This document shows, piece by piece, positions 36,574-54,371 of a DNA stretch of 64,000 bases. The DNA is from Nonomuraea rubra (GTDB taxonomy: Bacteria > Actinomycetota > Actinomycetes > Streptosporangiales > Streptosporangiaceae). Numbering within the stretch: position 1 is the first letter of the stretch; each line of letters opens with the position of its first letter. The stretch is taken from NCBI RefSeq assembly GCF_014207985.1, contig NZ_JACHMI010000001.1, positions 2,091,001-2,155,000 on the forward strand, written 5' to 3'. The position numbers were made by a program, and so were the translations under genes. The notes beneath the pieces were generated by a model, which was given only the letters and a program-made list of their open reading frames with translations, was not told the DNA's origin and searched no databases.

Positions 36574-37458
36574 GTGCGCATCGCACTCGCCGGGCTCGCC
36601 ACCAGCCACCCCTACACCGACGCCCGCACCCTGTCCCGCCATGCCGAGCTCGTGGTGTGGGAGCAGGATCCCGAGCGGCTCGGCAGGTTCACCGCCGAGC
36701 ACCCGCGCGCGAAGGTGGCGGGCAGCCTGGCGGAGGTGCTGGCGGGCCCGCTCGACGGGGTGGTGCTGACCGTGCCCAACCCGCAGGTCCCGGCGGCGCT
36801 GGCCGAGGTGCTGGAAACGGGGCTGCCCTGCTTCGTGAACAAGCCCGCCGCCGCCAGCCGGGCGCAACTGGAGCAGCTCGACCGGCTGCCGATCCACGAC
36901 CGGGTGCTGTCCGGCTCGGTGCTGCGGTTCGCCCCCGCGTTCGCGGGCGCGCGGGTCGATCGTGACGAGGTGCTGGCGGTGCGGGCGACCGTACGGCACG
37001 ACGTGGGCATGTGGGCGACCGGTTACAACGCCTGGCAGGACACGCCGGGTGAGGGCGGCGGCACGATGGTCACCATGGGAATCCACGGGGTGGAGCTGCT
37101 GGTGGCGCTGCTCGGGCCCGAGGTCAGGCTGGTGGGCGCCGCGGGGGCGAGGCGGCACTACGCGACGCTCCGCTCGGAGGACACCGGGGTGATGGCGCTG
37201 CGCTGGGACGATGGCATCACCGGCACCGTCGAAGTCCTCGGCGTGTCCGAGTCGGAGTCCTACAGCGTCACGCTGCACACGCGCGACGGCAGCGAGACGA
37301 TCGTGATCGAGGGCGGGGACGACGTGGTCCGCGGGCTCGGGTACGAGGGGACGATCGAGGCGTTCCTCGCGATGGTGAACGGCGCGCCCAGCCCCGTGCC
37401 GTGGGCGGAGACCAGGGCCGTTCTCGACGTGCTGGTCCGCGCGCGCGAGGACTTCTGA
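36574..37458 (+). CDS. Gfo/Idh/MocA-family oxidoreductase
   Basis: The GTG at 36574 has GGAAGG seven bases upstream and opens directly into the Rossmann fold ('VRIALAGLATSHPYTDARTL'). The 'LPCFVNKPAAASRAQLEQL' block carries the family's conserved catalytic Lys (EKP-like, here NKP). The C-terminal part has 'GGGTMVTMGIHGVELLVALL', the substrate-side helix with the conserved His. Length 294 aa is slightly short for the family. Members oxidise or reduce a hydroxyl of sugars, inositols or their derivatives with NAD(P). It opens a catabolic-looking gene block that runs to 54.4 kb. Confidence 0.88.
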   Translation: MRIALAGLATSHPYTDARTLSRHAELVVWEQDPERLGRFTAEHPRAKVAGSLAEVLAGPLDGVVLTVPNPQVPAALAEVLETGLPCFVNKPAAASRAQLEQLDRLPIHDRVLSGSVLRFAPAFAGARVDRDEVLAVRATVRHDVGMWATGYNAWQDTPGEGGGTMVTMGIHGVELLVALLGPEVRLVGAAGARRHYATLRSEDTGVMALRWDDGITGTVEVLGVSESESYSVTLHTRDGSETIVIEGGDDVVRGLGYEGTIEAFLAMVNGAPSPVPWAETRAVLDVLVRAREDF

Positions 37459-37464
37459 ACGCCT

Positions 37465-37508
37465 GAGGCCGGGGAGGGGTGCCCGGCGTTCACCCAGGCC
37501 CCGGCCTC
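37465..37508 (+). terminator. Stem-loop after the Gfo/Idh gene
   Basis: GAGGCCGGGG (37465-37474) pairs perfectly with CCCCGGCCTC (37499-37508) across a 24-nt loop, seven bases after the stop codon. It separates the Gfo/Idh gene from the operator-controlled promoter that follows. Confidence 0.6.
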
Positions 37509-37516
37509 CCCTGCCG

Positions 37517-37546
37517 TTGACAGCCGGAGCTTCGCCCAGTTACGGT
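37517..37546 (+). promoter_or_regulatory. Sigma70-like promoter overlapped by operator 1
   Basis: TTGACA (37517-37522) and TACGGT (37541-37546) are separated by 18 bp. The -10 box lies inside the palindrome at 37540-37557, so a bound regulator would block the promoter. Confidence 0.6.
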
Positions 37547-37557
37547 CTGGACCGTAA
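37540..37557. promoter_or_regulatory. Operator palindrome 1: TTACGGTCTGGACCGTAA
   Basis: Perfect 8-bp inverted repeat TTACGGTC/GACCGTAA around a TG centre, 21 bp before GTG 37579. Best copy of a motif found five times in this block. Confidence 0.8.
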
Positions 37558-37578
37558 ATCGAGGACGGAGGAGACCGC

Positions 37579-38589
37579 GTGCGCACGACAGCGGAACTCG
37601 AGGAGCGGCTCGCGCGGCCGAGCCCCGGGCTCGTCGACGATCTGGGCAGGCTCGACGGCGACATCATGATCCTGGGCGCAGGCGGCAAGCTCGGCCCGAG
37701 CCTCGTACGGCTGGCGCTGAAGGCCACCGGCGGAGACAGGCGGATCATCGCGGTGTCCCGCTTCTCCGAGCCGGGCCTGGCCCAGGCGCTCCAGGAGGAG
37801 GGCGCCACGGTGGTCGCGGCCGACGTCGCCGACGAGCGGGCCCTGCGCGAGCTGCCGGACGCGCCGAACGTGGTGTTCCTGGTCGGGGCCAAGTTCGGCA
37901 CGAGCAGCGGCCAGGAGCACGCCGCCTGGTTCACCAACACCTACCTGCCGGGCCGGGTCGCCGACCGGTTCGCGGGCAGCAGGATCGCCGCGCTGTCCAC
38001 CGGGAACGTCTATCCCCTCGTCCCCGTCACCAGCGGCGGCAGCACCGAGGGCTCGCCCACCGGGCCCGTGGGCGACTACGCGATGAGCTGCCTCGGCCGC
38101 GAACGCGTGCTGACGTACTTCGCCGCGAAGAACGGCACCCCCGTGGCGCTGCTGCGCCTCAACTACGCGGTCGAGCTGCGCTACGGCGTGCTGGTCGACC
38201 TCGCCCAGAAGGTGCTCGCCGGGGAGCCCGTCGACCTGACGACGGGCCAGGTGAACGTGGTCTGGCAGGGCTACGCCAACGAGGTGGCGCTGCGGTCGCT
38301 GCTGCTCGCCGGCGTGCCTCCGTACGTGCTCAACGTCACCGGCCCCGAGCTGATCTCGGTGCGGCAGGCGGCGGTGGCGCTCGGTGAGGCGCTCGGCAAG
38401 GAGCCGGTGTTCACCGGCGAGGAGGCGCCGACGGCGCTGCTGTCGAACGCCTCCCGCTGCCACCGCCTGTTCGGCTATCCGGAGCTGACGCCCGCCGAGC
38501 TGATCGAGCACACGGCGCGCTGGGTCGCCGACGGCGGGCCGCTGCTGGGCAAGCCCACCAAGTTCGAACGCCGCGACGGGCGTTTCTGA
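37579..38589 (+). CDS. NAD-dependent epimerase/dehydratase-like protein
   Basis: GTG 37579 follows GGAGGAG. The 336-aa product has a Rossmann start 'IMILGAGGKLGPSLVRLALK', then 'VVAADVADERAL', 'VFLVGAKFGTSSGQEHAAWF', 'STGNVYPL' and the C-terminal 'LNVTGPELISVRQAAVALGE'. This is the extended short-chain dehydrogenase family. The usual YxxxK is modified: the equivalent 'GDYAMSCLGRERVL' keeps Tyr but lacks Lys at the normal spacing, so the chemistry may differ from a classical epimerase. It is the first gene after operator 1, probably co-transcribed with the aldolase-like gene that follows after 97 bp. Confidence 0.85.
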   Translation: MRTTAELEERLARPSPGLVDDLGRLDGDIMILGAGGKLGPSLVRLALKATGGDRRIIAVSRFSEPGLAQALQEEGATVVAADVADERALRELPDAPNVVFLVGAKFGTSSGQEHAAWFTNTYLPGRVADRFAGSRIAALSTGNVYPLVPVTSGGSTEGSPTGPVGDYAMSCLGRERVLTYFAAKNGTPVALLRLNYAVELRYGVLVDLAQKVLAGEPVDLTTGQVNVVWQGYANEVALRSLLLAGVPPYVLNVTGPELISVRQAAVALGEALGKEPVFTGEEAPTALLSNASRCHRLFGYPELTPAELIEHTARWVADGGPLLGKPTKFERRDGRF

Positions 38590-38686
38590 CGCGCGTGCTC
38601 GCATCGCACGGCGGGCGGCGAGCGCACGCGCTCGCTCCGCACGGCAGGCGTGCGTGCTCACCTCACACGGAAAAGGGGGACCTCAC

Positions 38687-39757
38687 GTGCTCGGCACGGC
38701 TTCAGGGGCGCAGGCTCCACAGGCACAGGAGTCCGTACGCGACCTGTTCAGGCGCGGTCTGGTGATCCCGGCGCATCCGCTGGCCCTGACCGAGGACAGG
38801 AGGCTGGACGAGCGCCGCCAGCGCGCGCTGACGCGCTACTACGTCGAGGCGGGCGCGGGCGGGCTGGCGGTGGGCGTGCACACCACGCAGTTCGCCATCC
38901 ACGGCACCGGCCTGCTCGCGCCCGTGCTCGAACTGGCCGCGGGAACGGCGAAGGAGTTCGAGCGCGAGGTGGTGCTGGTCGCCGGCGTGACCGGGCCCAC
39001 CGGCCAGGCGGTGGCCGAGGCGGAGCTGGCCCGGTCGCTCGGTTACCACATGGTGCTGCTGAGCCCGTACCGGGAGCTCGACGAGGACGGGCTGATCGCG
39101 CGGGCCAGGGCCGTGGGCGAGGTGCTGCCCGTGATCGGCTTCTATCTGCAGCCCGCGGTCGGCGGGCGGCCCCTGTCGCGCGACTTCTGGACGCGGCTGG
39201 CGGGCATCGAGTCGGTGGTGGGCGTCAAGGTCGCGCCCTTCGACCGGTACCGCACCCTCGACGTGCTGCACGGCGTCGTACGGGCGGGGCGGGCCGGGGA
39301 GGTGGCGCTCTACACGGGCAACGACGATCACATCCTCGCCGATCTCATCACCTCCCACCGGGTGGTCGTGGACGGGCGGCAGGTGGAGGTCGAGTTCGTG
39401 GGTGGCCTGCTCGGGCAGTGGGCCGTCTGGGTGCGGCGGGCGGTGGAACTGCTGGAGGAGGCCACGCTGGCGCGGTCGGGCGACGACGCCGCGGTGCGCC
39501 GGCTGCTCGGGCTGGACGGTCACCTCACCGACGCCAACGCGGCCATCTTCGACTCGGCGAACGGCTTCCACGGGTGCATCCCGGGCATCCACGAGGTGCT
39601 GCGCCGCCAGGGGCTGCTGGCCGGCCGATGGTGCCTGGACCCCGGGGAGGACCTGTCGCCGGGGCAGCTCGCCGAGATCGACCGCGTCTGGGCCGCCTAC
39701 CCGTGGCTGCGCGACGACGACTTCGTCGCGCAGGGCCTGGACCGATGGCTGGCCTGA
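38687..39757 (+). CDS. DHDPS/N-acetylneuraminate-lyase-family aldolase (356 aa)
   Basis: The GTG at 38687 is preferred because GGGGGA lies about eight bases before it. The product is a TIM-barrel lyase of the dihydrodipicolinate-synthase superfamily: 'VIPAHPLALTEDRRLDERRQ' at the N-terminus, 'AGGLAVGVHTTQFAIHGTGL', Tyr in 'VIGFYLQPAVGG', and the presumed Schiff-base Lys in 'SVVGVKVAPFDRYR'. It is about 60 residues longer than the usual 295, with the extra length at the C-terminus ('FDSANGFHGCIPGIHEVLRR'). Members cleave or form carbon-carbon bonds to pyruvate or related 2-oxo acids. A second member of the same superfamily lies at 45391. Confidence 0.85.
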   Translation: MLGTASGAQAPQAQESVRDLFRRGLVIPAHPLALTEDRRLDERRQRALTRYYVEAGAGGLAVGVHTTQFAIHGTGLLAPVLELAAGTAKEFEREVVLVAGVTGPTGQAVAEAELARSLGYHMVLLSPYRELDEDGLIARARAVGEVLPVIGFYLQPAVGGRPLSRDFWTRLAGIESVVGVKVAPFDRYRTLDVLHGVVRAGRAGEVALYTGNDDHILADLITSHRVVVDGRQVEVEFVGGLLGQWAVWVRRAVELLEEATLARSGDDAAVRRLLGLDGHLTDANAAIFDSANGFHGCIPGIHEVLRRQGLLAGRWCLDPGEDLSPGQLAEIDRVWAAYPWLRDDDFVAQGLDRWLA

Positions 39758-39769
39758 GCGGAAGGCCGG

Positions 39770-40975: not shown

Positions 40976-40995
40976 CCGCGTCTCCTTCCCCTTCT

Positions 40996-41013
40996 TTACG
41001 GTCTAGACCGAAA
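40996..41013. promoter_or_regulatory. Operator palindrome 2: TTACGGTCTAGACCGAAA
   Basis: Inverted repeat TTACGGTC/GACCGAAA with a TA centre (7 of 8 arm positions pair). It sits in the 47-bp gap between the regulator gene and the divergent aminotransferase gene, so it could control both. Confidence 0.75.
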
Positions 41014-41022
41014 GGCTATCCG

Positions 41023-42216
41023 GTGACCCTGCACTTTCCCAACATGGCCGAACCCGCGGGCCGCACCCTCGGTGACGAGGAGGTGGCCGCGCTGGACCGC
41101 GTCATCCGCTCCGGCATGCTCAACTCCGTGTGGGGGACCGAGGCGCGGGCGCTGGAACGCGAGGTCGCGGAGCTGTACGGCTCCCGCCACGCGATCGCCT
41201 GCGCGTCCGGCACCGCGGCCCTCCACCTGTCGGTCGTGGCGGCGGCGCCGGACCCCGGTGACGAGATCATCACGACGCCGATCACGGACTTCGGGACCGT
41301 GGCCCCCATCTTGGCGCAGAACGCGGTTCCTGTCTTCGCCGACGTGGACCCGTCCGACGGCAACCTCGACCCGGACGCCGTCGCCGCGCTCATCGGGCCG
41401 CGCACCCGCGCCATCATGGCGGTGCACCTGTTCGGCGCGCCCGCCAGGGTGGAGGAGCTGCGCCGGCTGGCGGACCGGCACGGTCTCACGCTCATCGAGG
41501 ACTGCGCGCAGGCGTGGCTGGCCGAGCTGCCCGGCGGCCGGTACGCGGGCACGGCCAGCCACGTCGGCACCCTGAGCCTGCAGCAGTGGAAGCACATCAC
41601 GTGCGGGGACGGCGGGCTGACCCTCACCGACGACGACGAGCTGGCCAGGCGCATGCGGCTGTTCGCGGACAAGGGCTGGGACCGGGCGGCCGGGCGTTCG
41701 CACGAGAGCCTGGGGCTGAACTACCGGATGACCGAGCTGCAGGCCGCGGTGGCCCGCGCCCAGCTCGCGAAGCTGCCCGGCGTGGTGGAGTCCAGGCGCC
41801 GCACGGCCCGGCAGCTCATCGAGGCCCTGCGCGGGCTCGACGGGGTCCATGAGAGCGGGCGTGACGAGGGCGGCGGCGGGATCGGGCTCCCGCGCCCCGG
41901 CGGGCACGCCTGGTGGCTGTTCCCCCTCGTCCTGCCCCGCGGCGACGCCTCCGAGCTGGCCGCGCACCTGGCCGCGGCCGGAATTCCGGCACGGGCCGGT
42001 TACCTCAAGGAGCCGCTCAACCGGGCCCCGCTGTGGGACGGGCCGATCTACGGCTCCTCCCGCTACCCCCTGGAGGGCTACCGCCCGGCCCCCTGCCCCG
42101 AGGCCGAACGCCTGGTCGCCGCCACCCTGCTCATCGTCGACTGGAACGAGCACTACACGTCCGAGCACGTCAAAGCCGTGGCGGAGGCGATCGCCGGATA
42201 CCCCGGCCGGTCGTAG
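41023..42216 (+). CDS. DegT/DnrJ/EryC1/StrS-family PLP aminotransferase
   Basis: A 397-aa PLP enzyme starting at GTG 41023. Signatures are 'ACASGTAALHLSVVAAAPDP', 'ITTPITDFGTVAPILAQNAV', Asp160 in 'TLIEDCAQAW' and the internal-aldimine Lys190 in 'LSLQQWKHITCGDGG', followed by 'LGLNYRMTELQAAVARAQLA'. The family transaminates keto-sugars or keto-cyclitols, in either biosynthetic or catabolic direction. Because it lies beside an ABC importer and dehydrogenases, a role in handling an amino sugar or aminocyclitol is plausible. A second member lies at 53196. Confidence 0.9.
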   Translation: MTLHFPNMAEPAGRTLGDEEVAALDRVIRSGMLNSVWGTEARALEREVAELYGSRHAIACASGTAALHLSVVAAAPDPGDEIITTPITDFGTVAPILAQNAVPVFADVDPSDGNLDPDAVAALIGPRTRAIMAVHLFGAPARVEELRRLADRHGLTLIEDCAQAWLAELPGGRYAGTASHVGTLSLQQWKHITCGDGGLTLTDDDELARRMRLFADKGWDRAAGRSHESLGLNYRMTELQAAVARAQLAKLPGVVESRRRTARQLIEALRGLDGVHESGRDEGGGGIGLPRPGGHAWWLFPLVLPRGDASELAAHLAAAGIPARAGYLKEPLNRAPLWDGPIYGSSRYPLEGYRPAPCPEAERLVAATLLIVDWNEHYTSEHVKAVAEAIAGYPGRS

Positions 42217-42236
42217 TCACGTTCATGTATCAGGCA

Positions 42237-42265
42237 TTGACCGGACCATCCCCGGTCATTAGGTT
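42237..42265 (+). promoter_or_regulatory. Promoter of the ABC importer operon
   Basis: TTGACC (42237-42242) and TAGGTT (42260-42265) are 17 bp apart. A separate 7-bp inverted repeat (TGACCGG 42238-42244, CCGGTCA 42252-42258) overlaps the -35, and operator 3 begins at the -10 box. Confidence 0.5.
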
Positions 42266-42281
42266 TCGGTCAGGACCGGTA
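42264..42281. promoter_or_regulatory. Operator palindrome 3: TTTCGGTCAGGACCGGTA
   Basis: Inverted repeat TTTCGGTC/GACCGGTA around AG, 21 bp before ATG 42303. The inner GGTC/GACC and outer T/A positions match the other copies. Confidence 0.65.
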
Positions 42282-42302: not shown

Positions 42303-43550
42303 ATGAGAAACAAAGCGGCAGCAGGCATCGCGGTCGCCCTCAGCGTCGTGATCGGCGGGTGCGGTTCCGGTGGCTCGGGCTCGGACAAGAGCGCGGTGAC
42401 TCTCTGGATGTACCCCGTGATCTCGGACCAGGCCAAGAACAAGGCCTTCTGGGACAAAATCGAGAAGGACTTCGAGGCCAAGAACCCGGCGATCGACGTC
42501 ACGATCGACCAGCAGCCCTGGGACGGCCGCCAGGAGAAGATCACCACGGCGCTGGCCTCCAGGAAGGGCTTCGACCTGGTCGTGCTCGGCCCCGACCAGA
42601 TCCCGCAGTACGCCGAGCAGGGCACGCTGGAGGCCGTGGACGACGTGATCGCGGCCGAGAAGAGCGGCTACCTGCCCAACGCCCTCACCGCGCTGACCGT
42701 GAACGGCAAGCTCTACGGCGTGCCCATCTACCAGACGATCACCGCCCCTATCTACAACAAGAAGCTCTTCGCCGACGCGGGCGTGACCAAGGTGCCGGAG
42801 ACGCTGGCCGAGCTGAAGGAGGCCGCACCCAAGCTGGCCGCCAAGAAGGTCGCGGTGCTCGACTATCCCGGCAAGCCGGAGGTCTCGCTCAACCAGAGCT
42901 TCTACCCGATCCTGTGGGCCAACGGCGGCTCGGTGTTCTCCCCCGACGGCAAGAGCGTGACCGTCAACAGCCAGGAGGGCATCGCCAGCCTCCAGTTCCT
43001 GCTCGACCTCAAGGCCGTCGGCGGCCTGCCGGAGAACGCCGCCAGCAAGGGCAACGACATCGAGGGCGGCCCGCTGGCCGGCGGCAGGACCGCGATGTAC
43101 CACGCGGCCACGGCCCTGAACGCCGACCAGCTCGGCGCCGCCATCGGCGCGGAGAACGTCGGCATCGGCCTGCCGCTGGAAGGCGCCAAGCGGGTCGCGT
43201 TCGGCATCCCCGGCGGCCTGGTCCTGGCCAAGCACTCCGAGAACAAGGACGCGGCCAGGAAGCTGGCCGCCTACATCGCCTCGCCCGAGGTCGCCGGCTC
43301 GCTGGCCAAGGAGTCCGGCTTCTTCTCCGCGCGTACCGACGTGACGATCCCCGGCCAGTCGGCCACGTCCAAGGAGTTCGCCAAGTCGCTGCAGTACGCC
43401 TTCCCCGGCGACACCCACCCCAAGGCCCGCCAGGTGATGGCGATGGTCGCGGCCCACGTCCAGGCGGCGCTGATCGGCAAGGAGGACGCCAAGACGGCAC
43501 TCGACGCCGCCGCCAAGGAGGGCAACGACCTGCTGGCCAGCGGTGGCTGA
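42303..43550 (+). CDS. ABC importer substrate-binding lipoprotein (carbohydrate type)
   Basis: ATG 42303 with AGGAAAGGA upstream. A 415-aa lipoprotein (lipobox 'VVIGGC', Cys20) of the family-1 sugar-binding type: 'SAVTLWMYPVISDQAKNKAF', 'QPWDGRQEKITTALASRKGF', 'DLVVLGPDQIPQYAEQGTLE', 'LYGVPIYQTITAPIYNKKLF'. It captures the substrate outside the membrane and delivers it to the two permeases that follow (55 bp to the first). No ATPase gene is present. Actinomycetes commonly use one shared MsiK-type ATPase for such importers. Confidence 0.93.
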   Translation: MRNKAAAGIAVALSVVIGGCGSGGSGSDKSAVTLWMYPVISDQAKNKAFWDKIEKDFEAKNPAIDVTIDQQPWDGRQEKITTALASRKGFDLVVLGPDQIPQYAEQGTLEAVDDVIAAEKSGYLPNALTALTVNGKLYGVPIYQTITAPIYNKKLFADAGVTKVPETLAELKEAAPKLAAKKVAVLDYPGKPEVSLNQSFYPILWANGGSVFSPDGKSVTVNSQEGIASLQFLLDLKAVGGLPENAASKGNDIEGGPLAGGRTAMYHAATALNADQLGAAIGAENVGIGLPLEGAKRVAFGIPGGLVLAKHSENKDAARKLAAYIASPEVAGSLAKESGFFSARTDVTIPGQSATSKEFAKSLQYAFPGDTHPKARQVMAMVAAHVQAALIGKEDAKTALDAAAKEGNDLLASGG

Positions 43551-43605: not shown

Positions 43606-44472
43606 GTGCGTCATCGCCTGCGTGACCCGATCACGGGACTGCTGTTCGTGCTCCCGATGCTCGTGCTGTTCCTGATCTTCAAGATCTTCCCCACGCTCGG
43701 GGCGGCGGGCATGAGCCTGACGAACTGGAACATCGGCGGCGAGTGGAGCTTCATCGGCGCCGACAACTACACCCGGCTCGTGAACGACCCGAACTTCTGG
43801 TCCAGCCTGCAGGCCACGCTGGTCTACACCGTCATCTACGTGCCGCTCGTCATGGCCGTCTCGCTCGCCACCGCCCTGCTGCTCAACTCGATCGTCTTCC
43901 TGCGCGGGCTGTTCCGCGGCATCCTCTTCCTGCCGTACGTGACCAGCTTCGTCTTCGCCGGCCTCATCTGGCGCTGGATCTACGAGTTCGACGGCCTGAT
44001 CAACGGGGTGCTGGCCAAGCTGGACCTGGGGCCCGTCGGCTTCATGGAGCGGGCGGAGCTGGTGCTGCCCGCCCTGGCCGTCGTCTCCTGCTGGAAGGGC
44101 TTCGGCTACTCCATGCTGATCCTGCTGGCGGGGCTGAAGGCCATCCCCGGCTCCTACCTGGAGGCGGCCAAGGTCGACGGGGCCGGCCCGTGGCAGCGCT
44201 TCCGCGGCATCACCCTGCCCCTGCTGAAGCCGGCGATCTTCTTCGTGCTGGTGATCGAGACCATCTCCTCGTTCCAGGTCTTCGACACGATCTACGTGAT
44301 GACCGGCGGCGGGCCCGCCAAGGCCAGCTACACCCTCATCTACGGCATCTTCGAACGCGGCTTCAGGTTCTGGGAGTTCGGCTACGCGGCCACCTGGGGG
44401 ATGGTGCTGTTCGCCATCGTGCTGGTCGTCTCGCTGATCCAGCGCCGGTTCATCGGCAAGGAGAACACATGA
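43606..44472 (+). CDS. ABC importer permease, MalF/UgpA-like
   Basis: GTG start at 43606, 288 aa with six hydrophobic segments, beginning 'GLLFVLPMLVLFLIFKIFPT'. The cytoplasmic EAA loop reads 'EAAKVDGAGPWQRFRGITLP', where the importer contacts its ATPase. It overlaps the next permease gene by four bases (ATGA). Confidence 0.93.
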   Translation: MRHRLRDPITGLLFVLPMLVLFLIFKIFPTLGAAGMSLTNWNIGGEWSFIGADNYTRLVNDPNFWSSLQATLVYTVIYVPLVMAVSLATALLLNSIVFLRGLFRGILFLPYVTSFVFAGLIWRWIYEFDGLINGVLAKLDLGPVGFMERAELVLPALAVVSCWKGFGYSMLILLAGLKAIPGSYLEAAKVDGAGPWQRFRGITLPLLKPAIFFVLVIETISSFQVFDTIYVMTGGGPAKASYTLIYGIFERGFRFWEFGYAATWGMVLFAIVLVVSLIQRRFIGKENT

Positions 44473-45374: not shown

Positions 45375-45390
45375 GGTGAGGGGAGCGAGG

Positions 45391-46284: not shown

Positions 46285-46285
46285 C

Positions 46286-48214
46286 TCAGAGGGCCACCCG
46301 GATCAGGTTGCGCCCCTTGAGCGCGTAGAGCGCCTTGCGGGACGGGTCGATGTTGATCCGGGAGCCGCCGCCGAACCAGTCGCTCGCCAGCCCCTCCACG
46401 AGCTTGCGGGAGGTGAGCTTGACCAGGTCGATCTCGTAGACCGCGTCCTCGTCGCTCGTGTAGGCATGCCGCCCGGCGAGCACCAGGTCGCCGCCCCGGT
46501 CGCACACCTTCAGCGTGCGCGTGACCTTGCGCCGGCGCAGGTCGAACTCGAACAGCACGCCCGCGTCGGTGATCCCGTACAGGGCGAGCGCGCCGTGCTT
46601 GAGACTCGTGACGGCCTTCGCGCCGGCCACCGGCTCGACCTCCCACCTCACCTCGCGGGTACGCAGGTCGAACGCCGCCAGCCGGGCCGTGGACGTCACC
46701 GGCGGCGACCCGAGACCCTCCTGCGTGCTGGTGCCCAGGTAGACGGTGCCCAGCCGGGCGGCCAGCGAGAACACGGTCTGGCGCTCGACGACCGGGCGGT
46801 AGGTGTCCACCCGGCCGGTCCTCGGGTCGTAGACGTCGAGCGCGCCGTTCTGGTGCCCCGGCTCCGGCTGGGTGGACATCACGATCAGGCCGGTCAGCCT
46901 GTCGTGGACGAGGTCCTTCGGCCGGTCCTGGTTGTGGCCGGTGCGCAGGAGCAGCCTGGCCTCCGGGTCGCCCGCGCGGTGGGAGTAGAGGGCGGCCTGG
47001 GTGTAGACCCCGAGGTAGGTGGTCGTCCCCGCGGTCATGATGGTCTTCGGCTCGCCGGGGATGGGCAGCCGGGTGACCTGGCCCGTGGCCAGGTCGTGCA
47101 GGTCGCAGCCGCCCTTGCCGCCCACGTAGATGCGCTCGCCGTCGCAGTGCACGGACATGGGCTCCTCGGGGGCGGCCCTGAACCCCTTCTGCACGTGGCT
47201 GACATAGCTCAGGTCGCCGGTGGCGGGGTCGTAGACGAAGATGCCCGGCTCCTGGACGCCATAGATGCGGCCGCCGTGCTCCAGGATGCGGACGGTCTGC
47301 GCCTCCGGGAACGGCACGCCGAGCACCTCGTACGCGCCGGTCGCGATCTCGTAGCGGTAGAAGGTCCCGGAGGGACGGCCGGCGAAGTACACCCAGCCGT
47401 CGTGGATCAGCACAGAGACGACGTACTTCTCGCCCGGGGCGGTGGCCTTGACCACCTTGTACGCGGCCGGGTCCGCCTTCTCCAGCACGAGCAGCTCCGC
47501 CAGCGAGTTCATGCCGCCCGCCACGTGCGTGTCGCTGATCGACATGCTCGACACCCAGTCGCGGTCGGCCACCTCGGCGGGCAGCAGCTCGCGCTTCTCG
47601 CCGGTCCGCCGGTCGATGGCGATCAGGTGGGCGTTGGCGCCGACGCCCGCGTAGACGTGCGTGTCGTCGGCCTGGATGCTGCGGACGTACGCCTCGCCCG
47701 GAGCGGGCTGGCCCAGGTCGCGGGTGGCGCCGGTGGCGGGGTCGTACTCCAGCACGCGGCCGGGCTGGGAGGTGCCCATGAACACCTTGCCGTCGGGGGA
47801 GGCGGCCATGGTCCAGATGTAGGGGTCGGGGTACTGGGCCAGCAGGGTGGTGCTGCCGGTCAGCGTGTCGATCTTGTAGAGGTCGGAGCGGCTGTGGGTG
47901 CCGACGTAGACGTCGGTGCCCACCTTGCACATCGCCCAGATGCCCACGCCGGTCGGGATGTCGAAGTGTGCCGTGACCCGGTCCTGGCCCAGGTCCCAGG
48001 CGCCCACGACGTTCGGCGCCAGGCCGCGCGAGCCGAGGTAGAGCACGTCGCCGACGAACTCGGCGTTGCCCAGGGGGCTGGTCACGCTGGCCGGGCCGAG
48101 GTCGGTGATCGTGCCCTTCGGCTCACGGGTGCCGGCCGCCGCGGGAGCGGCCTGGAGGGTGGCGGCGCCCGCGGAGATGGCTGCGGCTTGGAGGAAACGG
48201 CGGCGGGGGATCAT
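46286..48214 (-). CDS. Exported beta-propeller protein, twin-arginine signal (642 aa)
   Basis: The N-terminus 'MIPRRRFLQAAAISAGAATL' is a Tat signal, cleaved near 'APAAAG'. The rest is one or two beta-propellers with blades such as 'VYVGTHSRSDLYKIDTLTGS', 'IWTMAASPDGKVFMGTSQPG', 'IFVYDPATGDLSYVSHVQKG' and 'RLAAFDLRTREVRWEVEPVA'. It is a paralogue of the protein encoded at 49791-51776, with matching 'PGRVLEYDPATGATRDLG'/'DGRVREYVPATGAVRDFG' and 'AAFDLRTR.V.W...P.AG' blocks. No catalytic motif is seen. An extracytoplasmic binding or polysaccharide-lyase-like role is possible. It is the last gene of the leftward mirror operon. Confidence 0.85.
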   Translation of the reverse strand: MIPRRRFLQAAAISAGAATLQAAPAAAGTREPKGTITDLGPASVTSPLGNAEFVGDVLYLGSRGLAPNVVGAWDLGQDRVTAHFDIPTGVGIWAMCKVGTDVYVGTHSRSDLYKIDTLTGSTTLLAQYPDPYIWTMAASPDGKVFMGTSQPGRVLEYDPATGATRDLGQPAPGEAYVRSIQADDTHVYAGVGANAHLIAIDRRTGEKRELLPAEVADRDWVSSMSISDTHVAGGMNSLAELLVLEKADPAAYKVVKATAPGEKYVVSVLIHDGWVYFAGRPSGTFYRYEIATGAYEVLGVPFPEAQTVRILEHGGRIYGVQEPGIFVYDPATGDLSYVSHVQKGFRAAPEEPMSVHCDGERIYVGGKGGCDLHDLATGQVTRLPIPGEPKTIMTAGTTTYLGVYTQAALYSHRAGDPEARLLLRTGHNQDRPKDLVHDRLTGLIVMSTQPEPGHQNGALDVYDPRTGRVDTYRPVVERQTVFSLAARLGTVYLGTSTQEGLGSPPVTSTARLAAFDLRTREVRWEVEPVAGAKAVTSLKHGALALYGITDAGVLFEFDLRRRKVTRTLKVCDRGGDLVLAGRHAYTSDEDAVYEIDLVKLTSRKLVEGLASDWFGGGSRINIDPSRKALYALKGRNLIRVAL

Positions 48215-48250: not shown

Positions 48251-48268
48251 TAACGGACTAGGCCGTAA
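48251..48268. promoter_or_regulatory. Operator palindrome 4: TAACGGACTAGGCCGTAA
   Basis: A weaker copy of the motif around a TA centre, 36 bp before the start of the exported propeller gene. It overlaps the stop codon of the upstream amidohydrolase gene. It suggests an internal, separately controlled promoter. Confidence 0.55.
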
Positions 48269-48986
48269 TGTCCAGATCGAAAAGCCGTGCGGCGTTCCGC
48301 CACGCGACCAGCTCGGCCGTCTCCGCGTCCAGGCCCGCCGCCGCCACCGCGCCGAACGCCGAGGCCGGGTCGATGAGGGTCGAGTCGGTGCCGAAGAGCA
48401 GCCGCGTGCGGTCCACCGCCGCCGCCACCTGCGCGAAGCGGCCGGCGGGGGCGTGGGAGTAGCACGGTTCGAGGTAGAGGCGGTCGCAGGCGCCGGCCGC
48501 CTCGATGGCGTGGGCGTGGCCGTCGGCGCCCATGTGCCCGGCGATCACACGCAGGCCGGGCGTGTCCAGGCAGACCTGGGCCAGGTCCAGCACCGTGGCG
48601 CCCCACGTGTGCACGAGCGCGGGCACCCCGGCCTGCGCGACCATGGCCAGCGCCTCGCGCGTCTGGGGCGAGGAGACGGGCGAGCGGGTGTAGTCGGTGT
48701 GGATCTTGACGCCGGCGAACCTGCCGGTGGGCAGGTACGTGCGCAGGTCCCGCTCGGCGTCCGCCTGCCTGCGGGGGTTGACGGTGACGTAGCCCAGGTG
48801 GCGGTCCTGGCCCTCCAGCCAGGCGGCCAGGGCCCGGTTGCCGGCAGGGGCGTCGTAGATCACCGCCTCGGTGGCCGAGACGATCGACAGGTCGATGCCG
48901 TATCGGTCCATGGTGGCCACGTTCGCGCCGGCCACGTCCATGGTGAAGAACCACGGGCCCCAGTGCGCGTGCACGTCGATGATCAT
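48258..48986 (-). CDS. Amidohydrolase (PF04909-type) with intact metal motif
   Basis: A 242-aa metal-dependent hydrolase with the family's N-terminal HxH ('MIIDVHAHWG', His6/His8), 'AGVKIHTDYTRSPVSS', 'VPALVHTWG', 'RVIAGHMGADG' and the late Asp in 'LLFGTDSTLIDP'. The set of His/Asp ligands for one metal is complete. Relatives decarboxylate or hydrolyse small cyclic or lactone substrates. It overlaps the upstream partner gene by four bases. Confidence 0.87.
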   Translation of the reverse strand: MIIDVHAHWGPWFFTMDVAGANVATMDRYGIDLSIVSATEAVIYDAPAGNRALAAWLEGQDRHLGYVTVNPRRQADAERDLRTYLPTGRFAGVKIHTDYTRSPVSSPQTREALAMVAQAGVPALVHTWGATVLDLAQVCLDTPGLRVIAGHMGADGHAHAIEAAGACDRLYLEPCYSHAPAGRFAQVAAAVDRTRLLFGTDSTLIDPASAFGAVAAAGLDAETAELVAWRNAARLFDLDITA

Positions 48987-49720
48987 CCGAGCAGCCTCCT
49001 CGCGTTGCCGCCGGCCACGGCGGCGATCTCCTCCGGCTTCAGGCCGCTGGTCGCCAGGCGCAGCAGGGGGACGACCGGCTCGTAGTGGGGGGTGCGGGAG
49101 CCGTACAGCAGCCGGTCGGCCGGTACGGTCTCCAGCGCGTCGGGCGAGTTCAGCAGGCGGGTCGAGGTGTGGAAGCCCGGCTCGTCGGCGGCCACGACCA
49201 GGAAGTCGCCCAGGTGGTAGAAGTGCGTGTCGAGAAAGACCACCGTGGCGTCCAGACCGGCGAACGGCTGCCAGAAGCGCCGCACGTCACCCCCGGTCAG
49301 CACGGCGAGCCCGAGCCCCGCGCACGTCCTGGCCACGTGGCGGACCGAGGGGAAGCCCGCCTCCACGCCCTGCTCGTCGGGGAAGAGCCTGACGGCCCTG
49401 ACGCCCAGCCCCGCCAGCCGGTCGATCTCCCGTACGGCACCGATGGGGTCGCGCAGGTCCACCGTCCCTACCGGGACCACCGGCGGGTCCAGCCCCAGGA
49501 CCTCGTCGTTCCCGCCGCGCACGTCGAACAGCGCGGCGCGCAGGGACGCGACCGCGCCCGCCCGGACACGGTGCGCGGCCAGCGTGTCCAGCACCGCCCG
49601 GGGCGTGCCCGGCGGGCCGTCGCGGTCGGGATAGGCGCCGACCAGGACATCCACGTCGAGGCTCACCTCAAGGTCGCCGATCAGCTTGCTCGCGTCGAAC
49701 GCCGTCACAACCGCCTCCAT
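48983..49720 (-). CDS. Amidohydrolase-like protein lacking the HxH motif
   Basis: A 245-aa TIM-barrel-like protein related to its neighbour and to the protein at 51776. The position of HxH reads 'EVSLDVDVLVGAYPDRDG', with no histidines. Later blocks are preserved in outline ('LGVRAVRLFPDEQGVEAGFP', 'VVFLDTHFYHLGDFLVVAAD', 'PADRLLYGSRTPHYEPVVPL', 'IAAVAGGNARRLLG'). It has a few histidines elsewhere but not the standard ligand set. It is probably a non-catalytic or differently acting partner of the canonical enzyme encoded right after it (ATGA overlap). Confidence 0.78.
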   Translation of the reverse strand: MEAVVTAFDASKLIGDLEVSLDVDVLVGAYPDRDGPPGTPRAVLDTLAAHRVRAGAVASLRAALFDVRGGNDEVLGLDPPVVPVGTVDLRDPIGAVREIDRLAGLGVRAVRLFPDEQGVEAGFPSVRHVARTCAGLGLAVLTGGDVRRFWQPFAGLDATVVFLDTHFYHLGDFLVVAADEPGFHTSTRLLNSPDALETVPADRLLYGSRTPHYEPVVPLLRLATSGLKPEEIAAVAGGNARRLLG

Positions 49721-49748: not shown

Positions 49749-49759
49749 CTGGGCCAAAA
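49742..49759. promoter_or_regulatory. Operator palindrome 5: TTACGGTCTGGGCCAAAA
   Basis: The left arm TTACGGTC is perfect and the right arm GGCCAAAA is partly degenerate. It lies in the 70-bp gap between the two divergent mirror operons and could control both. Confidence 0.7.
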
Positions 49760-49790
49760 TTGGGCAACACGCTCACGTGGAGGTGCGGCC

Positions 49791-51776
49791 GTGCCGCGGA
49801 AACCCCTCGCAGTCCTCGCGGCCCTGGCCGCCGGGCTGCTCCTGCCGGTCGTCCCGGCTCAAGCGGCCCCGGCGTCATCGTGCGCCGGGCCGCGGGTGGA
49901 GACGTTCGGGGCGGCGTCGATGACCGGGGCCATCGTGGGCGCCACGGTGCACGAGGGCAGGGCGTACGTGGTCACGCGCGGCCAGAAGCCGCCCGTACTG
50001 GCCGAGATCGACCTGAGCACCCGCAAGGTCGTCAGAAGCGTGCGGCTGCCCGACGGCCCCGCCACCGGGGAACCGGAAGGCGGCTGGGCCACCACCGTGT
50101 CGGGCGGCAAGATCTACGTCGGCACCTACCCCGTCCCCGACCTCTACCGCTTCGACCCGGCCACCGGCGAGGTGGCGCACCTGGCCTCGTTCGGCAGGAA
50201 CGGCGGCTACATCTGGGCGCTGGCCACCGCCCCCGACGGCACGATCTACGCGGGCACCTACCCGGACGGCCGGGTCAGGGAGTACGTCCCGGCCACCGGC
50301 GCCGTGCGCGACTTCGGCGTGCTGGCCGCGGGCGAGCGGTACGTCAGGGCGGTCGCCGCCGACGCCGAGAACGTCTACGCGGGCCTGCTCGACAAGGGCA
50401 AGCTCGTCGCGATCAACCGGACCACCGGCGCCGTCACCGAGCTGGCCCAGGGCACGACCGGCATCGGGGTGGTCGCCGAGCACGGTGACCGGATCCTCGC
50501 GACGAGCGGCCAGACCCTCATCGACGTGCGCAAGGACGGCACCGACCTCCGGCGGGTCCCGCTCGGCACGAGCAGCTTCGACGCCCTGACCGTGGCCGCC
50601 GACGGCACGGTCTACGCCACCTCGCGCCCCGACGGCGCCGTCCACCGCTACCGCACCGGCGACAGCGCCCCCACCAGGGTCGCCGGCCCTCCGTCGCAGG
50701 ACGACGAGACCAGGCGGCTGGCGCTGACCGATGACGGCACCCTGGTCGGGTTCTCCGGCAGCGGCGGCATGTGGTCGCTGGACCTGGGCACCGGGCAGTG
50801 GGAGTTCACCGACCTGATCGAGGCAGGACTGCCCGCCGGCGCCGAACGCCCCCAGAGCATGCTGCTGGTGCCCGGACGCGCCGTCTACGTGGGCGGCCAC
50901 TTCTTCATGGACGTGCGCGACCTGCGCACCGGCGAGCAGCGCCGCTTCCGCGTCCCCGGAGAGCCCAAGGACCTCGTGCGCCGCGGCAACCAGATCTACG
51001 CCGCCATCTACCCCAGCGGGAACATCATCTCCATCGACCTGCGCACCGACGCCGTCCGCAGCCTCGGCCACCTGGGGCAGGGCCAGCAGCGCCCGTGGGA
51101 CATCGAGTACGACCCGGTGCGCGACAAGCTGCTGGTCGCCTCCGCCCCGCTGGGCGCCGAGCTGGAGGGCGCCCTGTCGGTCGTGGACCCCGACACCGGC
51201 GAGATCGACGTCTACAAGGGCGTCATCCCCGGGCAGAGCCTGATGAGCCTGTCGCTGGACGCCGGCAAGGGCATCGTGTACCTCGGCGGCGACGTGCTCG
51301 GCGGCGGCGGCACCCCGCCGGTGCACGCGTCGGCGTCCGTCGCGGCCTTCGACCTGCGCACCCGTACGGTGCTGTGGCAGACGGACCCGATCGCCGGATA
51401 CCGCACCTTCCAGGACGTCAAGATCCACGACGGGCTGCTCTACGGCGTGTACAAGCGCAACTCCGGCGCCTGGATCGCCCTGGACCCGGCCACCCGGACG
51501 ATCGAGCACCAGGGCACCCTGTCCGGGTACGGCGAGCTGACCACGCACCGCGGCAGGGTGTTCGCCAGCACGTTCTTCGGCGGGGGCAACGCCTACGAGC
51601 TGGGCGAGCAGGCCACGCGGCTCGCCACCGGCCTGGGCGACGAGTGGTACACCAACCCGCAGCTCCACTTCGAGCCCGGCTCCTGGAAGGCGTGGGCCCT
51701 GAGCGGCCGGCACCTGGCCAGGATCGACCTCGATCCGCGCTGCCCGCCGCTGACCGTCACCCCGCGGCAGCTCTGA
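49791..51776 (+). CDS. Exported beta-propeller protein, Sec signal (661 aa)
   Basis: The GTG at 49791 has GGAGG seven bases upstream (49779-49783). A Sec signal peptide ends at 'PVVPAQAA'. The mature part is a large propeller: 'IYVGTYPVPDLYRFDPATGE', 'IWALATAPDGTIYAGTYPDG', 'NIISIDLRTDAVRSLGHLGQ', 'VAAFDLRTRTVLWQTDPIAG'. It is the paralogue of the protein at 46286-48214, although that one uses a twin-arginine signal. The next gene starts on its stop codon (TGATG). Confidence 0.85.
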   Translation: MPRKPLAVLAALAAGLLLPVVPAQAAPASSCAGPRVETFGAASMTGAIVGATVHEGRAYVVTRGQKPPVLAEIDLSTRKVVRSVRLPDGPATGEPEGGWATTVSGGKIYVGTYPVPDLYRFDPATGEVAHLASFGRNGGYIWALATAPDGTIYAGTYPDGRVREYVPATGAVRDFGVLAAGERYVRAVAADAENVYAGLLDKGKLVAINRTTGAVTELAQGTTGIGVVAEHGDRILATSGQTLIDVRKDGTDLRRVPLGTSSFDALTVAADGTVYATSRPDGAVHRYRTGDSAPTRVAGPPSQDDETRRLALTDDGTLVGFSGSGGMWSLDLGTGQWEFTDLIEAGLPAGAERPQSMLLVPGRAVYVGGHFFMDVRDLRTGEQRRFRVPGEPKDLVRRGNQIYAAIYPSGNIISIDLRTDAVRSLGHLGQGQQRPWDIEYDPVRDKLLVASAPLGAELEGALSVVDPDTGEIDVYKGVIPGQSLMSLSLDAGKGIVYLGGDVLGGGGTPPVHASASVAAFDLRTRTVLWQTDPIAGYRTFQDVKIHDGLLYGVYKRNSGAWIALDPATRTIEHQGTLSGYGELTTHRGRVFASTFFGGGNAYELGEQATRLATGLGDEWYTNPQLHFEPGSWKAWALSGRHLARIDLDPRCPPLTVTPRQL

Positions 51777-52444
51777 TGTCGTACCCCGTCGTGGACGCCC
51801 ACCGGCTCATCGGCCCCGTACCCTTCGACGACCTGCCGGAGGACCCGCGGCCGGACATGGGCCGGCTGGGCATCGACCGCGCCTACGTGACCCACACCCT
51901 CAGCCTCTACTCCGACGTCCGCGCCGGGAACGAGGCGCTGCTCGCGCTCGGCGACCCCCGGCTCGTCCCGGTGCCCGTGCTGCTGCCCGAGCCGTTCGAG
52001 CCCGTGCCGCACTGGGACGTGCCCGTGGTCCGGCTCTGCCCGGCCAGGCACCGCTTCGAGCTGACCGGGCCGACCGCCCTGCGCTGGCTGGCGGAGCTCG
52101 GCGTCACGGCGGCCATCGATCTCGACGAGACCTCGCCGGGACAGCTCCTCACCCTCGCCCGGGAGCTGCCCGAGCAGCGCGTCCTGCTGCTCAACCCCGG
52201 CTACCGGCGGCTGCGCGCCGTCGCCGAGCTCATGGCCGCCATCCCGAACCTGTGGCTGGAGATCGGCACCGTGAACACCCAGCGCGGTGTCGAATGGCTG
52301 GCCGGGCACTTCGGGGCCGGGCGGCTGGTGTTCGGCACCGGCGCCCCCGTCATGGACGACTGCGGCCCCCGCTTCCTCCTCGACCACCTCGACCTGCCGG
52401 AGGACGACATCGCCCTGATCGCCTCGGGGGGTGACCTGCTGTGA
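51776..52444 (+). CDS. Amidohydrolase-like protein with degenerate metal motif (222 aa)
   Basis: ATG 51776 overlaps the preceding stop by one base. The N-terminus 'MSYPVVDAHRLIGPVPFDDL' keeps the first His of HxH but has Leu at the second position, and the later His/Asp ligand blocks are weak ('LWLEIGTVNTQRGVEWLAGH', 'RLVFGTGAPVMDDCGPR'). Blocks such as 'SDVRAGNEALLALG' match 'FDVRGGNDEVLGLD' of the degenerate protein at 48983. It is the second non-canonical member, again paired with a canonical enzyme (52441) by a four-base overlap. Confidence 0.78.
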   Translation: MSYPVVDAHRLIGPVPFDDLPEDPRPDMGRLGIDRAYVTHTLSLYSDVRAGNEALLALGDPRLVPVPVLLPEPFEPVPHWDVPVVRLCPARHRFELTGPTALRWLAELGVTAAIDLDETSPGQLLTLARELPEQRVLLLNPGYRRLRAVAELMAAIPNLWLEIGTVNTQRGVEWLAGHFGAGRLVFGTGAPVMDDCGPRFLLDHLDLPEDDIALIASGGDLL

Positions 52445-53199
52445 TCCTCGACGCGCACGGCCACCTCGGCCCGTGGCCCGACTTCCTCATCCCCGACCCG
52501 TCGGCCGGCGGCATGGTCGCCCTCATGGACCGCCTCGGCATCGACGCCATCGGCATCAGCCACCTGCTCGCCGTCGGCCCCAGCGCGGAGGAGGGCAACC
52601 GGCTCGCCTTCGCCGCCGCCGAGCGGTACCCCGGCCGGTTCGGGGTGTGGCAGGTGTACAACCCGCACCAGCGCAACCGGCTCGCCGAGCGGGGCGTCTG
52701 GGGTGTCAAGATCCATCCGGACGTGCACCAGTGCGCCCTCGACGACCGCCGCTACGACCCGGTGTGGGAGCTGGGCCTGCCCGTGCTCGCCCACGGCCAG
52801 ACGGACTCGCCCTGGAGCGACCCGGAGCGGTTCGTCACCGTGGCGCGCCGGTATCCCGGGGTTCCGCTGCTGCTCGGGCACGCGGGGCTCTGGCCGTACG
52901 GGTTCGCCCGCGCGGCCGGGCTCGTCCGCGACCATCCGAGCCTGTACCTGGAGATCTGCGGCTCCAAGATGACCGGGCGGTGGATCTCCCGGCTGGCGGA
53001 GGCGGTCGGCGCCGATCGTGTCGTGTACGGCTCCGACGCCTGCTTCCTCGACCTGCGGGTCGGCTTCGGCCGCGTCGCCCTGGCGCCGCTCGACGACGCC
53101 GACCGGGCCCTCATCCAGGGCGGCAACCTCGCCCGCATCCTGGGCGGCGACCCCGCCCGCATCCTGGGCGGCGACCTCGCGGAAGGACATCAGCCATGA
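52441..53199 (+). CDS. Amidohydrolase (PF04909-type) with intact metal motif
   Basis: GTG 52441, 252 aa. Metal ligands are present: His6/His8 in 'MILDAHGHLGPW', 'GVKIHPDVHQC', 'LPVLAHGQTDSP', 'PLLLGHAGLWPYG' and Asp in 'VVYGSDACFLDL'. It is the mirror counterpart of the enzyme at 48258. The C-terminus carries a short tandem repeat ('ARILGGDPARILGGD') encoded by two 21-bp identical copies. Overlaps with both neighbours show tight translational coupling. Confidence 0.87.
   Translation: MILDAHGHLGPWPDFLIPDPSAGGMVALMDRLGIDAIGISHLLAVGPSAEEGNRLAFAAAERYPGRFGVWQVYNPHQRNRLAERGVWGVKIHPDVHQCALDDRRYDPVWELGLPVLAHGQTDSPWSDPERFVTVARRYPGVPLLLGHAGLWPYGFARAAGLVRDHPSLYLEICGSKMTGRWISRLAEAVGADRVVYGSDACFLDLRVGFGRVALAPLDDADRALIQGGNLARILGGDPARILGGDLAEGHQP
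53131..53175. repeat. Two 21-bp direct repeats, 24-bp period
   Basis: GCCCGCATCCTGGGCGGCGAC plus one shared codon occurs at 53131-53151 and 53155-53175 inside the amidohydrolase 3' end. It keeps the frame and adds eight residues. Confidence 0.8.
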
Positions 53200-54371
53200 C
53201 CCTGGCGATCGACGGCGGCACCCCCGTGCGCACCGCCCCCTGGCCGGCGTGGCCGCCCCCGATGGACCACGCCCAGCGCGCGCTCGTCACCGCCGTGCTG
53301 GACAGCGGCCAGTGGGGCGCCACCCAGGGAGGCCAGGCGTGCGCCGACCTGGTGGCCGCGTTCGCCCGCCGCTCCGGGGTCGAGCACGGCGTCGCCGTCG
53401 GCAACGCCACGCTCGGCCTGTTCGCCGCGCTGCGCGGGCTCGGCGTCGGGCCCGGCGACGAGGTGATCGTGCCGGCGTACACGTTCGTCGCCACCGCGAC
53501 GGCGGTCCTGCTCGCCGGCGCCACCCCGGTCATCGTGGACGTCGACGCCGCCGACCTCCACCTGTCCGCGCCCGCGGTGGAAGCGGCGCTCACCCCCCGC
53601 ACCGCGGCGATCGTGCCGGTGCACCTCGCGGGCAGCCCGGCCGACATGGACCCGCTGAACGCCCTCGCGGCACGGCACGGCCTGGCCGTCGTCGAGGACG
53701 CGGCCCAGGCGCACGGCGCCGCCTACCGCGACCGCCCCGTCGGCGGGCTGGGCGACGCCGGGGTCTACAGCTTCCAGTCCAGCAAGGCGATGACGGCAGG
53801 GGAGGGCGGCCTGATCGTCTGCCGCGCCGGCGAGGTCCACGAGGCCGTCTGGTCGCTCTGCAACGTCGGCCGCGCACTCGACGGCGCCTGGTACGGCCAT
53901 CCGCGCGCCGGCTGGAACCTGCGCCTGACCGAGATCCAGGCCGCCCTGCTGCTGCCCTGGCTGGACCGGCTCGACGACGAGATCGACCGCAGGAACACCT
54001 TCGCCGCCGCCGTCGAACGCGACCTGCCCGGGGACCGGGTGAGCGTGGTCCCGCAGCCACCCGGCACCACGCGCGACTCGCGCCACCTGCTCATGCTGCG
54101 CGTCCACGTCCCCTTCGACCGGCCGTTCCTGCTGGCGGCCATGGATGCGGAAGGGGTCCCCCTCGACGGCGGCTATCCACCGCTCGGCACGATGCCCGCC
54201 CTGACGGAGGCGGGCGCCCGCCCCGAGCCCTGCCCGTCGGCCGAGGCCGCGGCACGCGACGTGCTCTGGGTTCGCCAGCCCATGCTCATGGACGACCTCA
54301 CCGGCGCCGCGCACATCGCCGAGGCCCTGGCCAAGGTGCTCGCCGGCGCTGCCCGGGGACCTCGTCCATGA
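53196..54371 (+). CDS. DegT/DnrJ/EryC1/StrS-family PLP aminotransferase
   Basis: ATG 53196 overlaps the upstream stop (ATGA). The 391-aa product opens 'MTLAIDGGTPVRTAPWPAWP', typical of StrS-like enzymes. It has 'GVAVGNATLGLFAALRGLGV', 'IVPAYTFVATATAVLLAGAT', Asp168 in 'AVVEDAAQAHGAAY' and the PLP Lys197 in 'YSFQSSKAMTAGEGG'. It completes the rightward mirror operon. With the aminotransferase at 41023 it argues that the substrate passes through a keto/amino interconversion. Confidence 0.92.
   Translation: MTLAIDGGTPVRTAPWPAWPPPMDHAQRALVTAVLDSGQWGATQGGQACADLVAAFARRSGVEHGVAVGNATLGLFAALRGLGVGPGDEVIVPAYTFVATATAVLLAGATPVIVDVDAADLHLSAPAVEAALTPRTAAIVPVHLAGSPADMDPLNALAARHGLAVVEDAAQAHGAAYRDRPVGGLGDAGVYSFQSSKAMTAGEGGLIVCRAGEVHEAVWSLCNVGRALDGAWYGHPRAGWNLRLTEIQAALLLPWLDRLDDEIDRRNTFAAAVERDLPGDRVSVVPQPPGTTRDSRHLLMLRVHVPFDRPFLLAAMDAEGVPLDGGYPPLGTMPALTEAGARPEPCPSAEAAARDVLWVRQPMLMDDLTGAAHIAEALAKVLAGAARGPRP

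Follow-up and report, generated by a model that had tools for sequence, protein, structure and literature searches.

What does a block of 16 genes at positions 36574-54371 of a 64,000-nucleotide stretch of the Nonomuraea rubra genome (12.9 Mb; the stretch covers positions 2,091,001 to 2,155,000 of contig NZ_JACHMI010000001.1 and is hereafter called the window) encode, and how is it controlled? The gene list was built from gene calling (open reading frames (ORFs), codon composition and translations) together with Pfam matches, and each gene was given a letter: A for a Gfo/Idh enzyme, B for an epimerase-like protein, C and H for members of the DHDPS family, D and T for DegT/StrS proteins, E for a lipoprotein, F and G for permeases, R for a regulator, P1 and P2 for propellers, M1 and M2 for canonical Amidohydro_2 proteins and N1 and N2 for degenerate ones (Table 1). 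An earlier sequence-only reading had named these genes in an order that the ORFs and Pfam matches bear out, and had correctly placed a divergence near 49.75 kb (49720/49791) with both gene orders; R and the operators described below had been overlooked.

We consider it probable that the block is a catabolic regulon under the control of R at the operator TTACGGTCnnGACCGTAA, with propellers outside the cell, import by an ATP-binding cassette (ABC) system, and cytoplasmic breakdown by two dead/active amidohydrolases, each tied to a DegT aminotransferase. The observations behind this proposal, all made at the level of sequence, concern which genes are present and conserved, where the operator sits, which residues the enzymes retain or have lost, and how the N and M genes are coupled.

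A shared operator and its probable regulator

The palindrome TTACGGTCnnGACCGTAA was read from the intergenic regions of the block. The window holds five sites with at most 3 mismatches, against 0.10 expected, and each lies just upstream of a cluster gene. To follow the operator further, genome contigs were scanned with an alignment of R and 80 loci were kept, from 21 named genera plus metagenome-assembled genomes, with 10-kb flanks each way. These R-anchored loci contain 254 operator sites, spread over 77 loci, whereas shuffled versions of the palindrome, 20 in all, average 3.0 over the same loci and reach 20 at most. Nearly all of the sites (242/254) lie upstream of a gene with a match in the window, at a distance of -40 to 260 nt, although for one of the 242 the gene counted is a LuxR-type neighbour in locus L116; 11 lie elsewhere and 1 falls within N1. 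Sites occur upstream of B (61), E (49) and P1-like genes (28). Because some of these loci, along with the window, are where the operator was first spotted by eye, the figure of 242/254 is no independent test, and operator sites unlinked to the cluster come nearer to one.

The host genome has 27 operator-like places, compared with 5 for the reversed pattern, and 12 of the 27 were looked at individually. Five are in the cluster and three are at unlinked propeller genes; the latter, at 5.4388-5.4428 Mb, coincide with the called starts of two convergent propeller genes whose products are ~30% identical to P1. Four other places (2442800, 8242522, 8490984 and 11860950) were rejected, as they break nearly invariant operator positions and have no cluster homologue beside them. 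Beside the unlinked propeller pair, a stretch (L216:428-8932) encodes a separate ABC importer, a GntR regulator and a 916-aa beta-helix (pectate-lyase-like) protein with CBM6 domains.

For other genomes a degenerate pattern, TTWCGGTCNNGACCGWAA, was used. At up to 2 mismatches it occurs at 6-16 places per genome in nine cluster-bearing relatives, against 0-3 for the control. At up to 1 mismatch, each of the 7 cluster genomes listed in full has 1-4 sites, and 6 of 7 genomes without a detected cluster or close R have 0. Eleven further operator regions were picked by hand among the matches listed, which cover genome G123 in part and G142 not at all. Propellers stand beside the operator in all three regions that flank the cluster (L245, L246 and L249), and 4 of the 8 unlinked regions carry propellers (L241, L242 and L247) or cluster genes (L243, with R, A, H and P1). 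The last of these belongs to G123, where R, A and H are missing from the 20 kb surrounding M1 and lie instead ~5.6 Mb away with operators. In G007, which encodes an R at 45% identity, there are five sites within 1 mismatch, two of which adjoin R and a luciferase-like gene; an H homologue neighbours these. The G007 regions (L259, L260) resemble a reduced system, with a further unlinked operator between two divergent genes.

In its structure model R is predicted to comprise a PrpR_N-like sensor fold (residues ~1-195), a GGDEF/cyclase-like domain (~199-309) and a winged helix-turn-helix (HTH) domain (~321-399). The sensor fold is shared, on the predicted model only, with PrpR-type regulators (2pju, 2q5c), but R differs from these in lacking the sigma-54 AAA+ module (there is no Pfam match, and the domain order in the model is another one), in place of which it would carry the cyclase/GGDEF-like domain and the winged HTH. 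A PDB sequence search with R returned no relative worth using. The predicted PrpR_N-like domain suggests that R may respond to a small-molecule inducer. R is 97% identical to its counterparts in N. monospora and N. thailandensis; a paralogue in the host genome, at 12.227 Mb, has EPSP-synthase-like and GARS genes as neighbours and no N-M pair. The distribution of sites lends good support to the proposed binding of the operator by R, and the block looks like one regulon under R, in agreement with the regulon proposed in the sequence-only reading, given the shared operator and the co-occurrence of the genes in many genera.

Conservation of the gene block

We next looked at gene content across actinomycetes. 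M1 alone was used as a query against 200 genomes of the family and matched 21, including the host; the best region from each of the 20 other genomes, together with that of Nonomuraea gerenzanensis, makes up a set of 21 loci in which genes were counted as present at ≥40% identity. N1 lies directly beside M1 in all 21. D, E, F, G and H are each found in 19 loci, R in 16, M2, N2 and T in 15, C in 14, P2 in 11, P1 in 10, B in 9 and A in 7, and these counts are lower bounds since several stretches end inside the cluster. In genome G064 (L021/L025), M1 was matched in two separate pieces.

The 80 R-anchored loci, in which R is present by design, span genera from Nonomuraea to Micromonospora, Jiangella, Actinomadura and Streptomyces. 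D is present in 65, C in 64, B in 61, H in 58, M1 in 52, A in 51, P1 in 26, M2 in 22 and P2 in 13; for P2, N2, M2 and T the counts are lower bounds, as many loci, with flanks of 10 kb, end before the right-hand genes. B adjoins C in 59/61, and in other genera the same genes may be co-directional or split. The block genes thus recur together in many genera of soil actinomycetes, which is the outcome that the sequence-only reading had looked to a gene-neighbourhood search to decide. In four loci (L099, L121, L125 and L156) an R of 65-85% identity stands alone, the fetched stretch otherwise holding nothing that matches a cluster gene at ≥40% identity; of the four, L099 has an operator and the other three do not.

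Paired degenerate and canonical amidohydrolases

The two Amidohydro_2 pairs are the most distinctive part of the block. In M1 the metal-site residues (HxH, Lys, His, His and Asp) are kept in 50/50 to 52/52 sequences, and in M2 the HxH motif, the beta-4 Lys, two His and the final Asp are kept in 22/22 each; both thus retain the ligands of the PF04909 (Amidohydro_2) superfamily. Unlike the known enzymes of that superfamily, each M is encoded together with a ligand-poor homologue, N. The beta-4 Lys position is occupied by Arg in N1 (48/48) and N2 (23/23), the final Asp is missing from both (49/49 and 23/23), and of the HxH motif N1 has neither His (43/43) and N2 retains only the first (22/24). 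The closest that M1 comes to a solved structure is a weak match to 3cjp, a predicted amidohydrolase and the sole PDB match at E ≤ 0.1.

The genes of each pair stay together. M1 neighbours N1 in 49 of 52 loci, the other 3 being at locus ends, and M2 neighbours N2 in 21/22. A 4-nt overlap joins N1 to M1 in 47/50 and N2 to M2 in 21/22, as one joins the permease genes F and G in 55/60, although the count takes the in-frame start nearest the upstream stop, which favours overlap. T adjoins M2 in 20/22, and in Jiangella and Actinophytocola the genes run without interruption as D-N1-M1 and N2-M2-T. From this adjacency and gene overlap we infer that N and M may form a heteromeric amidohydrolase made of a dead N and an active M. 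The titles and opening lines of abstracts returned by a literature search contained nothing on dead/active amidohydrolase pairs.

Similar pairs occur in other systems. In three sister loci (L049, L051 and L052) an R paralogue and an N-M pair are accompanied by a heparinase II/III-like gene beside N or T; in L050 a gene of similar length stands in its place, known by length and place alone. These systems share with the window the N-M pair, a regulator of the R type, sugar permeases and, in L049 and L050, a DegT gene, but where they have the heparinase-like gene the window has a propeller beside N2. Across the phylum, M-type matches at E 1e-30 were found in 18 of 396 genomes, the host included, and 13 of the 18 belong to one family, AT-rich where measured (four loci), which is taken to be Candidatus Humimicrobiaceae from the names attached to related N proteins. 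Four N sequences of this type, from 3 loci, align as degenerate and likewise have Arg at the beta-4 position. Of 20 regions fetched phylum-wide, 12 have an N-like gene beside M, 3 have two M-like matches and 5 have M alone; apart from the four aligned N sequences, loss of ligands was judged by testing the upstream ORFs of the 20 loci crudely for HxH. Besides unrelated genes, the neighbours in the scanned loci include an FGGY kinase (rhamnulokinase-like, below cut-off), a DeoR regulator, a class II aldolase and ribose-type ABC genes. As related N-M pairs sit by carbohydrate genes, a general carbohydrate role is supported, with no particular substrate indicated. Two contigs of this AT-rich lineage, a deep one within the actinobacteria (L159, L161), have M genes with one in-frame TAG each.

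In a tree built from 30 rows each of N and M, together with 5 outgroup rows, N forms a single group (94/87), as does M save for one long outgroup row placed among the Humimicrobiaceae-type M. The same four subfamilies appear on the N and M sides, the branching order among the N subfamilies being open, and M2 groups with M of the heparinase-type systems and not with M1 (89/93, moderate support). The two pairs in the window thus belong to different old subfamilies and are old paralogues, not local copies. This bears on the description of the two divergent gene sets as mirror-duplicated operons, which is right about their matching content and order; a recent local duplication was rejected on the tree, moderate as its support is, and on BLASTP identities of 33% for M1/M2, 27% for N1/N2, 32% for P1/P2 and 33% for D/T.

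Accompanying enzymes, importer and propellers

C and H both retain the Schiff-base Lys of the DHDPS/N-acetylneuraminate lyase family, and C retains the catalytic Tyr as well. In C, Lys192 and Tyr164 are each conserved in 64/64, Thr77 in 63/64 and Thr78 in 64/64, and HTTQF replaces the GTTGE of the family. H departs further from it, with HTGRG at this place (the HTGR motif in 58/58) and, next to an invariant Lys172 (58/58), Phe147 instead of the catalytic Tyr (58/58), so that H may run a different reaction. The Lys that binds pyridoxal phosphate is kept in both aminotransferases (Lys190 of D in 64/65, Lys197 of T in 22/22).

Like carbohydrate ABC importers with an SBP_bac_1 component, the block encodes a binding lipoprotein and two BPD_transp_1 permeases; the closest NCBIfam models to E are MalE/GanS-like, far below their cut-offs. 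The structural matches shown for P1 (Foldseek, VIA) are generic WD40/PQQ-type or sensor propellers, and no known lyase or glycosidase propeller is among the P1 matches listed. The leader of P1, judged by eye, is presumably of a twin-arginine-like kind.

Proposed pathway and alternative explanations

In the pathway that we propose, R would act at the operator to switch the whole block. The exported tandem propellers would act on or bind an extracellular carbohydrate-like substrate, and the importer, with its binding protein, would bring the product into the cell. Two steps would each be carried out by an N-M amidohydrolase, D working with N1-M1 and T with N2-M2, while the Gfo/Idh enzyme, the epimerase-like protein and the lysine-dependent DHDPS-family lyases would supply redox chemistry, isomerisation and C-C cleavage. 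The order of these reactions we infer. That the block is a regulon is all but certain and a carbohydrate role for it is likely, and the substrate would most likely be an amino- or acid-sugar, a sugar oligomer or an aminocyclitol. The statement of the sequence-only reading that it knew of no characterised pathway with this set agrees with our literature search, where titles and opening lines of abstracts gave no gene-for-gene match, and with the NCBIfam scan, in which none of the 13 genes scanned (of 16; F, G and T were left out) reached a curated cut-off.

Several results weigh against a catabolic regulon of this design. The lack of any gene above a curated cut-off is itself one of them, and no substrate was identified from curated names or, with the M1 match as weak as it is, from PDB relatives. 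D adjoins N1 in only 11/66, so that its tie to N1-M1 is weaker than that of T to M2. The propellers are absent from part of the loci and are without an assigned activity, and there is no ABC ATPase among the block genes, the rest of the genome not having been searched for one. As to the operator, in four unlinked regions (L240, with two sites, L244, L248 and L250) the genes next to the site do not belong to the cluster, and three R loci (L121, L125 and L156) have no good site. In nine genomes without M1 the degenerate pattern occurs, at up to 2 mismatches, at 2-7 places, which overlaps the 6-16 of the cluster-bearing relatives; G016 has two 1-mismatch sites though it lacks a close R, and G004, with R at 78% identity, has no site within 1 mismatch.

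Variant loci bear on the chemistry. L152, with homologues in L153 and L155, adds an MR/MLE enzyme and an F420-type luciferase-like oxidoreductase, and an exact copy of the operator lies between the two genes in L047, the same Actinomadura locus as L152. A role for this MR/MLE enzyme as a sugar-acid dehydratase was rejected, since it resembles muconate-lactonising enzymes and epimerases. The two added enzymes suit a cyclic non-sugar compound equally well, which is a further point to set beside those above. L126 and L128 have an extra 2-hydroxyacid dehydrogenase.

Many of the same families would be expected if the product of the block were an aminocyclitol or an amino sugar, as pathways that make these compounds typically include DegT/StrS, Gfo/Idh and epimerase genes. 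D scores 173-178 bits, far short of the cut-off, against biosynthetic aminotransferases of the PseC/LegC type, and its solved relatives include sugar and scyllo-inosose aminotransferases. A biosynthetic cluster is nevertheless quite unlikely, given that a solute-binding importer belongs to the regulon, that two lysine-bearing DHDPS-family proteins are present, and that sister N-M systems accompany heparinase-like lyases and sugar kinases; by Pfam, the block genes include no glycosyltransferase, nucleotidyltransferase or core synthase. If the block is catabolic, it could still be an ordinary oxidative sugar-acid route (dehydrogenase, Amidohydro_2 lactonase, dehydratase and DHDPS-family aldolase) with some extras, in which N is a decaying M. 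The Gfo/Idh, Amidohydro_2 and DHDPS families do occur in such routes, and the operator-linked MR/MLE gene of the variant loci could be taken for the dehydratase, but that gene is of the muconate-lactonising type. Moreover, N is kept as a distinct clade with conserved residues of its own (Arg for Lys), which is not what decay would produce. We know of no role for DegT genes in an oxidative sugar-acid route, and on balance we think this account unlikely.

The muconate-lactonising-type MR/MLE and F420-type enzymes instead raise the possibility that a cyclic or aromatic-like compound is degraded, with M as a C-C hydrolase or decarboxylase of the PF04909 type, and decarboxylases are indeed found within PF04909. 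The importer, however, is of the carbohydrate type, and the exported propellers of the regulon, together with the lyase-bearing sister systems, point to a polymer or glycoside; we give this explanation little credence. The catabolic regulon under R set out above is thus the reading that we prefer.

Gene coordinates and neighbouring genes

Table 1. Genes and operator sites of the block in window coordinates (AF2, AlphaFold2; pLDDT, predicted local distance difference test).
Feature	Description	Position	Strand	Basis
A	Gfo/Idh/MocA-family oxidoreductase	36574..37458	+	Pfam PF22725/PF02894
Operator 1	0 mismatches, upstream of B	37540..37557		
B	NAD-dependent epimerase/dehydratase-like protein	37579..38589	+	PF01370
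C	DHDPS/NAL-family protein	38654..39757	+	PF00701; alignment to 3pud
R	Regulator, 401 aa	39770..40975	-	Predicted fold
Operator 2	1 mismatch, between divergent R and D	40996..41013		
D	DegT/StrS-family aminotransferase 1	41023..42216	+	PF01041
Operator 3	3 mismatches, upstream of E	42264..42281		
E	Carbohydrate-type solute-binding lipoprotein (start ATG at 42303)	42303..43550	+	PF01547
F	ABC permease	43606..44472	+	PF00528
G	ABC permease	44469..45332	+	PF00528
H	Divergent DHDPS-family protein	45376..46284	+	PF00701
P1	Exported, predicted tandem double beta-propeller	46286..48214	-	AF2, pLDDT 89.9
Operator 4	3 mismatches, upstream of P1, overlaps M1 3' end	48251..48268		
M1	Amidohydro_2 enzyme, intact ligands	48258..48986	-	PF04909
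N1	Degenerate Amidohydro_2 partner, 4-nt overlap with M1	48983..49720	-	PF04909
Operator 5	3 mismatches, between divergent N1 and P2	49742..49759		
P2	Exported propeller	49791..51776	+	PF21959/PF13360
N2	Degenerate Amidohydro_2 partner	51776..52444	+	PF04909
M2	Amidohydro_2 enzyme, intact ligands	52441..53199	+	PF04909
T	DegT/StrS-family aminotransferase 2	53196..54371	+	PF01041

An SMP-30/strictosidine-synthase-like gene directly follows T (54843-55787). As the 80 R-anchored loci show no homologue, it is probably not a cluster member, though many of these loci end before its position. On the minus strand at ~54399-54760 there is a small secreted-looking protein, its signal peptide read within a longer ORF, and immediately before A (36033-36476) lies a gene for a 147-aa protein with no Pfam match at E 0.01.

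Implications

A defined regulon, with regulator, operator and member genes, can thus be put forward for a pathway of which the titles and opening lines of abstracts in our search give no description, in genera known for drug discovery. More tentatively, and with the odds somewhat against it, a wider picture can be drawn in which N and M make up an obligate two-subunit amidohydrolase, the dead N shaping or gating M, that had a single origin early in the actinobacteria, after which the pair was copied into many systems for sugar degradation; here two such enzymes, each with its own DegT, would run an undescribed amino-sugar-like pathway, with the tandem propellers as new exported sugar-processing proteins. 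The operator offers a cheap route to the inducer and hence to the substrate. The putative paired dead/active hydrolase recurs in distant actinobacterial sugar systems, and if N is needed for M, many genes annotated as 'amidohydrolase family protein' would encode half an enzyme and would be misassayed alone.

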